Shown in pieces: positions 22,779 to 26,948 of a stretch of DNA of 64,000 bases (position 1 is its first letter; each line of letters begins with the position of its first letter). Source of the DNA: Vicingaceae bacterium. Lineage in GTDB: Bacteria > Bacteroidota > Bacteroidia > Flavobacteriales_E > Vicingaceae. Where the stretch lies: assembly GCA_019429185.1 (NCBI GenBank), contig JAHYJH010000002.1:1-64000 (forward strand). The letters are read 5' to 3'. Both the position numbers and the translations under genes were made by a program. The notes under the pieces are model-generated. The model did no database searches. It was not told where the DNA came from and was given only the letters and a program-made list of their open reading frames with translations.

Positions 22779-23417
22779 TTAAGCAGCACAAGGAATTCTT
22801 AAATCAATAAAGCTAAGTTGCCATGAACCATTTATTTGAGAGAAATAAAAAGTGTAATTATGGGTATTTACAACGGTAATTTTTATGGTTTCGCTAATAA
22901 ATTGAATTGCCTGAATTTCTTTCTCATTCAAATTGGCATAATTCCAAATTTCACTGTCATTTAAGGGGTTTATATTTTCCTGAAAACAACCTTGTTTGTC
23001 GTAGCTATTTTTTTCACAAACTATTTTTGGCAACTTTTCCTCAACAGGCATTAAACTTAATGAATCAAACAAAAGACTAAAAAACCCTTGCTTTGTTGTT
23101 GACGATTTATAATTTTCAATTTCATAAATCTTGCTTACTTCTGGCATAGCTCCCGAATTTTCTATAATGTACAAACCATAATCTTTATAAAAAAGTTGGT
23201 TGAACGCTGCTGCATTTTTAGTTTCTATTGCAGTTACCAATTGCTGATAAAATTGCAAAAAGGAATTAGTATTAGGCATTAATTTAGCGTTTTCTACTGT
23301 TATCAAGCCTGTTTTTACTGTAAGTGAATCTAATTGTTGTTGCTGAGTAGATTCGTTGGTTTGGTTGTCTGTACAAGCAATAAGAAAAAACAGAAATATA
23401 AAAATATAAGGCTTCAT
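22779..23417 (-). CDS. Hypothetical lipoprotein
   Basis: Lipobox FFLIAC; 9 nt downstream of the preceding gene. Confidence 0.65.
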   Translation of the reverse strand: MKPYIFIFLFFLIACTDNQTNESTQQQQLDSLTVKTGLITVENAKLMPNTNSFLQFYQQLVTAIETKNAAAFNQLFYKDYGLYIIENSGAMPEVSKIYEIENYKSSTTKQGFFSLLFDSLSLMPVEEKLPKIVCEKNSYDKQGCFQENINPLNDSEIWNYANLNEKEIQAIQFISETIKITVVNTHNYTFYFSQINGSWQLSFIDLRIPCAA

Positions 23418-23426
23418 TTTATGATA

Positions 23427-23981
23427 TTAATATGTTTTAGCTACAATCAAATTATGAAGATACAAACGTGCTTTTTTTCTTAATGTTTTCATTTGTCTAT
23501 TTGATTTACCTAATTCAATATTGAAATTATCAAAGGTTTGAATTTTACCATTTAAAATAAATCTAAAAATACTATGTGAGTAGTTGCAAACAACAGGATC
23601 GTGCAGTAACTGTATTTCTAATTGATTGCTTTTATCTTGTGATTCAATAAAGTAAGGAAATAATTCTTCTTTAACTAAATTAAAAAAAACAACTTCTTTA
23701 CCTTCGTATTTCTCAAAGTTTTCTATTTCTGATATACTAAATAAAACATCTTCTTTTTGAGAATATTTATTATTTAAACCTGACCGATTAACAGAAATAT
23801 CAGATAGTGTTTTTACTAAAAATTTATAGGGTATTTGAACAACTTCGTCAGGATTTACTCTATAATATAACTTTTCCCCTATTTCAAATTTATCAATAAC
23901 TGGCTTGTTATTCCAATGAAGACGTAAAGGAATATAGTCTAGATTACATTCATTATTAGTTGTTTGCAACTTCAAAACCAC
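23427..23981 (-). CDS. Hypothetical protein, third gene of TIGR04255-like operon
   Basis: Full-length ORF overlapping the upstream gene by 26 nt; no family recognised. Confidence 0.6.
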   Translation of the reverse strand: MVLKLQTTNNECNLDYIPLRLHWNNKPVIDKFEIGEKLYYRVNPDEVVQIPYKFLVKTLSDISVNRSGLNNKYSQKEDVLFSISEIENFEKYEGKEVVFFNLVKEELFPYFIESQDKSNQLEIQLLHDPVVCNYSHSIFRFILNGKIQTFDNFNIELGKSNRQMKTLRKKARLYLHNLIVAKTY

Positions 23982-24429
23982 TCATCAAAAATTCAAGAAC
24001 TAACTTTCTAATGTCTAAATCATCATAATCATAAAATTCCGAAAAACTATCTTGTAGCTTATATCCCGAAAAGCTAGAAAAAGAATCTCCAAACTCATCT
24101 ATAGATAAAAGATGAACTCCTTTGATTGATGAAAAAGTCATTAACACTTCATTTTCTCCTCCATACATCATTTTGATTTTTGGGAAAAGAGTAGCAGAAG
24201 TATCTTGACATTTAGTTTGTCTGTGTAATTCTAAAATCACCTTAATTAAAACCTCATTTTGAGGGGGTGTAAAGTTATATTTTTGAGAAAGTTTATTATA
24301 ACTTTGATCCAAACTATTTGTATCAATGTTTGTTATTGATCTAGAAAAATACTGTGGTTCATTTTCACCTTTATATAAAGCTGAAGATGTGTCACTCTTC
24401 TCTATTAATAAATTATCAAATTCATTCAT
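23956..24429 (-). CDS. Hypothetical protein, second gene of TIGR04255-like operon
   Basis: Overlaps neighbours by 8 and 26 nt; no family recognised. Confidence 0.6.
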   Translation of the reverse strand: MNEFDNLLIEKSDTSSALYKGENEPQYFSRSITNIDTNSLDQSYNKLSQKYNFTPPQNEVLIKVILELHRQTKCQDTSATLFPKIKMMYGGENEVLMTFSSIKGVHLLSIDEFGDSFSSFSGYKLQDSFSEFYDYDDLDIRKLVLEFLMSGFEVANN

Positions 24430-25147
24430 ATTTTGAAGTTAATTTATATGTTGTTGAACCAAAAAAGATTTTATTTTTAAATTCTCTCAATTCATCGAAT
24501 ATGTCCCAAATATTATCAATATTCAAACTTAAATTACTTTGCATAAAAACATCAATATCTAATACCATGAAGTTTTTATTGTCCTCTTTTTTAATATATT
24601 CTCTAATTAATCCTTTTATGTTTTTATTTTTGTTTGGCAAAAGTATTTCTAAATTAAACCCCTCCATTTCTTCATTTAATCCCTTTGGCAATATTGGTAA
24701 TAAATAGAAATCATCCCTTAAGTCAGTTTTATGTTGGAGTTCAAATTTATTAATGTATCTAATTCCTATTCTTGTTATTTTTAAAAAATTAAACTCATTA
24801 ATAAAATCTTCCCATATTTGTTTTGGTTCTGATATAAAATTTTGCCAATCAGTATATCCTTTTATTTTGTTAAATGCTACTCCATTAATCCTTAATTGAC
24901 AAACCCTTCCTTCATCTTCTTTAGTTAAATTAACTCCAGCAATTAATTTATTTTGATTTATAGTTGAGTCAAGATTAATTCCAATATTATATTCTAGTAT
25001 GTCACCCATTTTAGGGTAGTTAGCTACTTTTTCAGTTGAAAATTCTTTTAATTTATCAACAGTTAATTTATCATCTAAATCGAATTTAAAATCTATTAAT
25101 GCTTCCTGAATAGGTGCGTTCTTTAAATTTCTAACCTTATTTTCCAT
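24422..25147 (-). CDS. TIGR04255-like family protein
   Basis: KNAPIQEALIDFKFDLDD N-terminal signature and RIGIRYINKFEL. Confidence 0.75.
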   Translation of the reverse strand: MENKVRNLKNAPIQEALIDFKFDLDDKLTVDKLKEFSTEKVANYPKMGDILEYNIGINLDSTINQNKLIAGVNLTKEDEGRVCQLRINGVAFNKIKGYTDWQNFISEPKQIWEDFINEFNFLKITRIGIRYINKFELQHKTDLRDDFYLLPILPKGLNEEMEGFNLEILLPNKNKNIKGLIREYIKKEDNKNFMVLDIDVFMQSNLSLNIDNIWDIFDELREFKNKIFFGSTTYKLTSKYE

Positions 25148-25322
25148 TTCAAATATTGACTTTCACAATAGTAATAAAAAAACACTATCTAAGACTAGAT
25201 TTAACAATTTTTGTGATGTAAAGCTATAAATAATTTATAAATCTCAAATCGGTTTAATAATAATTTTTGAACTACAGATTGTTAATCTAATATCCTCTAT
25301 TATTTATAACTCATCCCTTATT

Positions 25323-26948
25323 TTATTCCAAAAGCTCCTCAATCACGTTTCCATCGCAAGAGGAAGGCATGGCAACTCCCAAAATTACGGAAAGCGTTGC
25401 TGCAATATCTGCAATAGCTACTTGTTCTGTTCTTACTCCTTGTTTTATATTGGTTCCGTACCACAACAATGGCACATGCGTATCATAATTATAAGGCGAA
25501 CCATGTGTGGTTCCTTTTTTGGTCCATTTGTTTATCCAACCCGAAGCTAATACAAACATCACATCTCCCGAACGCACCTGATGAAATCCTCTTTGAACAT
25601 TCCCCATGATTTTATCGGTAAACTCAGCTGCTTTTAAGTTGGTTGCCGAAACTGCTTTTACAATACCTTGTTGTGTCAACATAAAGTTTACCGAAACATT
25701 TTCTATTTCAATTAAATTTAATTGATGTTCCTTAATTAAATCGTGATTAAAAAACAGTTGGTAATTCGATAAGTTTGCTACTAAATTTGCTACCTTAAAT
25801 TTTTCAAAAAGAGCAGCATTTATGCTAGTTAAAGTAGCTTTTTCTTCAAAATACCCACTAGGAATTTTATTGTCAATGGTATGTTGAGGAATATCTGCCA
25901 CACCATGGTCGGCAGTTAAAAAAACTAAAAACTCTCCCTTACCTACTTGAGTTTCTAAAAAAGTTAACAATTCAGCCATTTCTCTGTCCAAACGCAAATA
26001 CGTATCTTGAATTTCTACCGAATAAGGTCCAAATTGATGTCCGATATAATCTGTAGAAGAAAAACTTATGGTAAGCAAATCGGTAATCTTATCACTACCT
26101 AATTGCTCATTTTTAATCACTTCAAAAGCCAATTCTTTTAAAATGGTGTTTCCAAAAGGAGTTGTTTTTATTAGGTCATAATTTTTATTGGCTTTTCTCA
26201 ACTTTGGTAAATCATGAGGAAAAACAGGGGCTTTTTCGCCCTCAAAAACTTCCTCATAAGGATTGTTGTCGGCAATACTTTCGGTATAATCATGTATAGG
26301 TAAAAGTGTTTCCCAAGGTTTTTGTAAATAGGTATTAGCGGTATTTTTTTGATTCAATTCGTTTAACCATTTAGGTAGTTCTTGCATATAATACGTACTA
26401 GAAATCCATTTTCCTTCATCTTCTCCAGCAAACCAATAAGCAGCATCAGCCTGATGTCCGGCAGGTAAAATAGCTCCTCTGTCTTTAATAGAAATTCCTA
26501 TTACTTTAGCTTGTTTATTAGCCGACTTCAACTCATCGGCAATGGTAGTAACCAATAGTTTATTTGGCGACATTTTTCCCATAATGGTTGTTGTGCCAAC
26601 TGATTCATAATTATCATCGGAAGTACAATAGGTTTTTGTTTTATTGGTTTTGTCGTACCAAGTATTAGCAATGATGCCATGGTTGGCAGGAGTTGTTCCT
26701 GTATAAATTGAAGCATGACCAGGAGCGGTATAGGTAGGCATATAGTTAAAATGCGTTTGTTCACAGTTGAAACCATTATTTACCAACTTTTTAAAACCAT
26801 CATCACCAAATTTATCCCAAAAACGAATTAAATAATCGTAACGCATTTGATCTACTACAATACCCACTACCAATTTAGGTTGTTTTTGCTGTGCTTGTGC
26901 AAAAAATATGCTTGTAACTAAGGAAATAACTAATAATAGATGCTTCAT
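25323..26948 (-). CDS. PafA-like alkaline phosphatase
   Basis: KLVVGIVVDQMRYDYL, MPTYTAPGHASIYTGTTPANHGI nucleophile region, FLTADHGVADIP. Confidence 0.88.
   Translation of the reverse strand: MKHLLLVISLVTSIFFAQAQQKQPKLVVGIVVDQMRYDYLIRFWDKFGDDGFKKLVNNGFNCEQTHFNYMPTYTAPGHASIYTGTTPANHGIIANTWYDKTNKTKTYCTSDDNYESVGTTTIMGKMSPNKLLVTTIADELKSANKQAKVIGISIKDRGAILPAGHQADAAYWFAGEDEGKWISSTYYMQELPKWLNELNQKNTANTYLQKPWETLLPIHDYTESIADNNPYEEVFEGEKAPVFPHDLPKLRKANKNYDLIKTTPFGNTILKELAFEVIKNEQLGSDKITDLLTISFSSTDYIGHQFGPYSVEIQDTYLRLDREMAELLTFLETQVGKGEFLVFLTADHGVADIPQHTIDNKIPSGYFEEKATLTSINAALFEKFKVANLVANLSNYQLFFNHDLIKEHQLNLIEIENVSVNFMLTQQGIVKAVSATNLKAAEFTDKIMGNVQRGFHQVRSGDVMFVLASGWINKWTKKGTTHGSPYNYDTHVPLLWYGTNIKQGVRTEQVAIADIAATLSVILGVAMPSSCDGNVIEELLE

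Follow-up and report, generated by a model that had tools for sequence, protein, structure and literature searches.

Small mobile conflict modules are already known as a kind; what is new at the locus described here is that no protein of the cassette belongs to a characterised family. Type II toxin-antitoxin modules with PIN (VapC-type) or HEPN toxins, both of which are RNase toxin families, resemble it in having compact, overlapping, mobile genes with a small gene directly 5′ of the toxin gene, and some of the related cassettes that we collected carry a PIN or HEPN gene in third position. Like these modules, the cassette consists of overlapping co-directional genes and has an accessory, mobile distribution. 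However, it has three genes rather than two, the extra one being a TIGR04255 gene that comes first; its third gene, ORF3, encodes neither a PIN nor a HEPN protein according to Pfam and has no toxin domain recognisable in Pfam, NCBIfam, PADLOC, PHROGs or fold comparisons; and no known antitoxin domain was found in any of the middle proteins tested. A parallel of another sort is offered by Panacea (DUF4065), a hyperpromiscuous antitoxin domain common to many unrelated toxins, for which a sensor role regulating activation has been proposed (PMC10440598). The cassette may work alike insofar as one domain is combined with many toxins, although ORF1 matches no Pfam family up to E 1, DUF4065 included, and TIGR04255 leads a three-gene operon. 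DUF4209, a HEPN family of the C6orf70 type described solely in surveys of HEPN proteins, where restriction-modification-related operons are mentioned (PMC3710099), occupies the first position before a gene pair resembling ORF2 and ORF3 on two Hymenobacter plasmids, but TIGR04255 is not present at those loci. DUF7689 (PF24738) fills the third position of five TIGR04255 cassettes, in two of which Pfam confirms it with E 4e-36 or better, but it is unrelated to ORF3 in sequence. The closest description of ORF1 itself is the NCBIfam model TIGR04255 (sporadTIGR04255, uncharacterised), to which it belongs over its full length, with a score well beyond the cut-off; the model covers the first gene only and names no function, and the partner genes and their exchange lie outside its definition. 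Neither TIGR04255 nor DUF7689 is named by any paper in the literature collection that was searched.

The cassette lies in a 64,000-nucleotide stretch of DNA from a Vicingaceae bacterium, which is called the window here. The original prediction placed three overlapping minus-strand ORFs between a gyrB-like/lipoprotein gene pair and a pafA-like gene. The positions, the neighbours and the 8-nt overlap between ORF1 and ORF2 were as described (Table 1), whereas the 26-nt overlap between ORF2 and ORF3 exists only if ORF3 begins at the GTG at 23981; with the alternative in-frame TTG starts at 23975 and 23969 the overlap would be 20 nt and 14 nt, respectively. Since there is no ATG upstream of the conserved region of ORF3, residues 1-7 have a pLDDT below 50 in the AlphaFold model and the sequences of its relatives start near residue 12, a start later than the GTG, at TTG 23969, is likelier. 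The leader upstream of ORF1, for which an Rfam search returned no match, presumably contains the promoter and the upstream insertion boundary.

Table 1. Features of the cassette and its immediate surroundings in the window.
Feature	Position	Strand	Description
ORF1, TIGR04255 family protein	24422..25147	-	241 aa, ATG start
ORF2, middle gene without curated family	23956..24429	-	157 aa, ATG start
ORF3, proposed effector	23427..23981	-	up to 184 aa from GTG; TTG at 23969 likelier
Leader between pafA-like gene and ORF1	25148..25322	-	175 bp, from sequence
pafA-like gene, flanking, outside the system	25323..26948	-	position conserved in relatives
Lipoprotein gene, flanking, outside the system	22779..23417	-	adjoins pafA-like gene in congeners

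The assignment of the first ORF to TIGR04255 was confirmed with 117.7 bits against a cut-off of 30, the match covering residues 8-236 of the protein and positions 2-247 of the 252 in the profile, and ORF1 is the sole TIGR04255 copy in its source genome. A fold search with its AlphaFold model (pLDDT 92.4, pTM 0.88) gave no match at E <= 0.001 in the PDB; START/PRELI-like matches were discounted, none of them reaching this threshold. The TIGR04255 profile likewise retrieved nothing significant from PDB sequences. As anticipated, no family could be recognised in the two partners: Pfam, NCBIfam and PADLOC returned nothing for them, and their PHROGs matches were marginal (best E 0.012 for ORF2, none better than 0.14 for ORF3), and none of the three proteins matched a PADLOC 2023 model up to E 1.

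TIGR04255 had been expected to occur sporadically, and we found it in 28 of the 395 genomes of the class, in none of the five congeners and in none of the 14 control genomes. A search of 12 relatives located the pafA-like gene in every one and the lipoprotein gene in nine. In the four congeners that span the junction (L078, L079, L080 and L082), the stop of the pafA-like gene and the start of the lipoprotein gene are 10-14 bp apart; in the window the distance between them is 1.9 kb and the cassette occupies this space. This short gap, together with the GC content of the cassette (24-28%, vs. 29-36% in most of the flanks), identifies it, on sequence comparison, as an inserted accessory unit. 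The cassette is not flanked by convincing direct repeats, and neither an integrase nor a transposase was seen next to it. Most TIGR04255 cassettes are chromosomal, and plasmid copies also exist, with two plasmid records containing TIGR04255; a search of plasmids with the L059 query gave no ORF3-type match. Annotated phage genomes contained no TIGR04255, and the viral catalogue contained a single TIGR04255 contig (L098). At another locus (L016:2-1370), two adjacent genes that look by eye like tyrosine recombinases lie directly upstream of a TIGR04255 cassette. The TIGR04255 genes of L005, L066 and L074 are disrupted by a stop or frameshift, which suggests that some cassettes are decaying.

To assess co-conservation of the three genes, profiles made from the ORF2 and ORF3 types were run over all the loci collected. 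The order TIGR04255, ORF2-type gene, ORF3-type gene recurs in seven genomes (L003, L012, L015, L019, L023, L057 and L059) and on the 36.7-kb viral-catalogue contig, which also has an integrase-like gene. A locus from another class of the phylum (L047) combines TIGR04255 with a divergent middle gene and a gene of the ORF3 type. In G051 TIGR04255 and an ORF2-type gene lie at one contig end and an ORF3-type gene at the end of another, consistent with a single operon split across two contig ends. Searches with ORF3 that were made independently of TIGR04255 yielded six confident loci (E <= 2e-4; G000, G051, G402, G204, G097 and G613), four of which have TIGR04255 in a cassette on the same contig; G051 is the split case, and in G204 the ORF2/ORF3-like pair stands behind an unrelated 115-aa gene instead. 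At L036:1483-2844, where such a pair follows a 115-aa first gene that is unrelated and has no Pfam match, what looks by eye like an IS1595-like transposase fragment lies alongside. The three-gene order is therefore kept in other genomes, with ordered relatives in the seven genomes and on the viral contig, and the partners are neither strangers to TIGR04255 elsewhere nor housekeeping genes. Three unrelated ORFs that overlap by accident, with no real grouping, would be compatible with the failure to place ORF2 and ORF3 in any family, and with nothing else that we observed. Iterated profiles recover nine ORF2-type and 17 ORF3-type proteins, by which ORF2 and ORF3 can be taken as genuine genes rather than chance ORFs; the order and coupling are repeated in distant genomes according to the same profiles; and the congeners have an empty site. 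These three lines of evidence refute the accidental grouping, which we consider next to impossible. The first, middle and third genes are translationally coupled, travel together and were gained as a unit.

We assembled a set of 56 TIGR04255 loci, including a few near-copies, and typed the third gene by profile. They come from Bacteroidota, Neomarinimicrobiota, Chloroflexi, Gammaproteobacteria, Alphaproteobacteria, Gemmatimonadetes, Acidobacteria, Saccharibacteria, Myxococcales, a cyanobacterium and Thermus, and their usual layout is TIGR04255, then a small middle gene whose start often overlaps the TIGR04255 stop by a few bases, then the third gene. The third gene is of the ORF3 type (family E) at 16 loci, of family E2 at 13, of E3 at five and of DUF7689 at five; the remaining typed loci have a "TNTCD" family (three), HEPN (three), PIN (two) or another unnamed family (two), and seven were left untyped, among them L002 and L051, which are cut by a contig end, and L071, which has a marginal E2 match. 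Representatives of the PIN, HEPN and DUF7689 third genes were confirmed by Pfam; a well-known RNase toxin family supplies the third gene at only five of the 56 loci. The type of the middle gene tracks that of the third: M occurs with E, and M2 accompanies E2, E3 and, in one case, E, while the second unnamed third gene is preceded in both of its cassettes by a middle gene whose protein is weakly HEAT-like. ORF2 has a C-terminal region of the "IDEDGDI..S" type, and the nine members of its own profile all lie between TIGR04255 and an ORF3-type gene save one cut by a contig end. Relatedness of E and E3 is supported (hhalign P 1.7e-5) and that of E2 and E3, which share motifs, is weak (P 0.0014). 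A single superfamily of E, E2 and E3 was rejected, with P 0.81 for E vs. E2, and because of this value and the weak link between E2 and E3 the three were kept as separate families.

A tree of TIGR04255 (47 rows, with E, E2 and E3 merged as one class) requires at least 10 changes of third-gene class, where the minimum possible is five. When the third-gene types were shuffled over the tree, the mean was 13.7 changes and none of 200 shuffles was as low as 10. The third-gene type is thus inherited yet repeatedly swapped. The tree was made by a quick method and its branches are long, making individual joins unsure. The well-supported branches alone force separate origins for the PIN (2), TNTCD-family (3) and second unnamed (2) third genes. 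The third gene has been exchanged between unrelated families, PIN and HEPN included, with the middle type following it. The scope is wider than the original prediction held: TIGR04255 is a first gene common to many interchangeable third genes. The first gene is also replaceable, as two Hymenobacter plasmids have an M2 + E3 pair behind a DUF4209 protein, that is, a member of a HEPN family (PMC3710099), in the order DUF4209, M2-type gene, E3-type gene (L101:1555-4351 and L102:1612-4420); neither of the two PLSDB gene tables annotates the E3-type gene. The middle gene of the DUF7689 cassettes (L065:924-1774, L067:907-1724, L069:5701-6553, L073:5744-6728 and L010:746-1495) is small and helical, and DUF7689 itself has "YNCIAWA" and "THAA.Q" motifs that by eye resemble a Cys-His peptidase-type active site. 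The "SNTCDI/TNTCDL/SQSCDI" third-gene family (L004:209-1104, L022:2241-3153 and L029:450-1477) has no Pfam match.

ORF3 belongs to the family of 17 members recovered by its iterated profile and has the conserved E-x2-Y-x-R, S-x-N-R, H and C/H residues, and among the seven closest sequences E36, Y39, R41, S63, N65, R66, E105, H127, C132 and H136 are invariant. Family E2 keeps E, R, S-V-x-R and H-A at places corresponding to ORF3 residues. This conservation of E, Y, R, S-N-R, H and C suggests a putative active site. For the AlphaFold model of ORF3 (pLDDT 84.7, pTM 0.81), neither the PDB nor the viral library gave a fold match at E <= 0.001; no known toxin was similar to ORF3 by sequence or fold (Pfam, NCBIfam, PADLOC, PHROGs, PDB and viral folds), single-sequence patterns of ORF3 found nothing in public genomes, and the ORF3, ORF2, M2 and E2 profiles found nothing significant among PDB sequences. 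Two of the best ORF3 Foldseek matches outside START/lipocalin-like folds are 6ede, a tRNA 2′-phosphotransferase, and 4qlp, the TNT toxin, both of the ADP-ribosyltransferase superfamily. ORF3 might accordingly be imagined as an ADP-ribosyltransferase-fold enzyme, either NAD-consuming or 2′-phosphotransferase-like, that would use the strand-borne R41, S63-N65-R66 and the C-terminal H136, and the conserved R and S do sit on successive strands of the model. However, these matches are not significant (E 0.42 and 0.45, probabilities 0.21 and 0.08, TM 0.18-0.25) and were given no weight, and the ORF3 motif differs from the canonical H/R-S/Y-E triad, making this identity very unlikely.

Mobile, overlapping genes of which the last is swapped, including for members of two RNase toxin families, and the middle one follows the last, are best explained if the cassette represents one form of a three-gene conflict module that is undescribed and spreads horizontally, a reading to which we give a probability of about 0.5. 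From their positions and covariation, roles may be assigned to the three genes. The product of the third gene, here ORF3, would be the effector and would either be toxic or arrest growth; ORF2, from the middle gene, would be a neutraliser or adaptor matched to that effector; and TIGR04255 would be a common sensing or regulatory subunit that keeps the pair inactive and releases it upon a cue such as phage infection. To the extent that sequence allows a test, the earlier suggestion of an accessory module serving as a toxin-antitoxin, defence or conflict system is supported by the confirmed TIGR04255 membership, the sporadic occurrence, the empty site in congeners, the kept gene order and the PIN and HEPN third genes elsewhere, and we hold a conflict role for the cassette with moderate confidence. 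Counting against it, no known antitoxin or DNA-binding domain was found in the middle proteins tested, and many cassettes, this one included, lie in ordinary chromosomal surroundings with no clear defence island. The dissimilarity of ORF3 to known toxins, the lack of a PADLOC model for the proteins and the small number of loci (five of 56) with a third gene from a well-known RNase toxin family also speak against this role.

Alternatively, the cassette may be an anti-phage defence module that is non-toxic without infection, in which TIGR04255 would sense a phage component or infection signal and activate the third protein, with ORF2 as adaptor. A sporadic single-copy accessory cassette and the combination of one first gene with many effectors would both fit such a module, as would the location of certain copies near known defence genes (SIR2, HerA, DpdF, PsyrT and ShosA among the PADLOC matches). 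While 173 PADLOC models were matched by 140 neighbour proteins and 26 by 140 controls, these figures count models and are dominated by a few proteins, a single SIR2, HerA or DpdF protein yielding many. Nearness to known defence genes is suggestive only; several loci have housekeeping neighbours only. The toxin-antitoxin and defence readings also overlap and are inseparable by the present data, and we regard defence in this specific form as somewhat unlikely. Beside one TIGR04255 cassette (L120:3546-7036), two genes look like the SIR2 and HerA proteins found by PADLOC among the neighbours, a tentative assignment from size and position. A decidedly unlikely explanation is a non-conflict accessory function, i.e., a small regulatory, RNA-processing or metabolic complex whose horizontal spread is incidental. 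It would agree with the chromosomal location of the majority of cassettes and with the status of ORF3 and DUF7689, which are formally of unknown function; the repeated exchange involving PIN and HEPN, the coupling by overlaps, the accessory insertion and the plasmid copies are instead typical of conflict modules.

Returning to the conflict-module reading, a broader proposal is that TIGR04255 would serve as the sensor shared by a large, undescribed family of modular immune or toxin-antitoxin systems with three genes, spread across many phyla and using at least six interchangeable effector families, several of which (the ORF3 type and its relatives, "TNTCD" and DUF7689) would be new enzymatic toxin classes; we put this forward tentatively, as falling a little short of an even bet. 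If the proposal is true, TIGR04255 is the marker of an entire class of modular conflict systems that has gone unrecognised, and its absence from all 14 well-known control genomes may explain why the class has been overlooked. The cassettes would then contain new effector families with no known fold relative, and their natural effector swaps would be useful for studying sensor-effector logic. TIGR04255 followed by two downstream genes would also provide a simple search handle for further systems.
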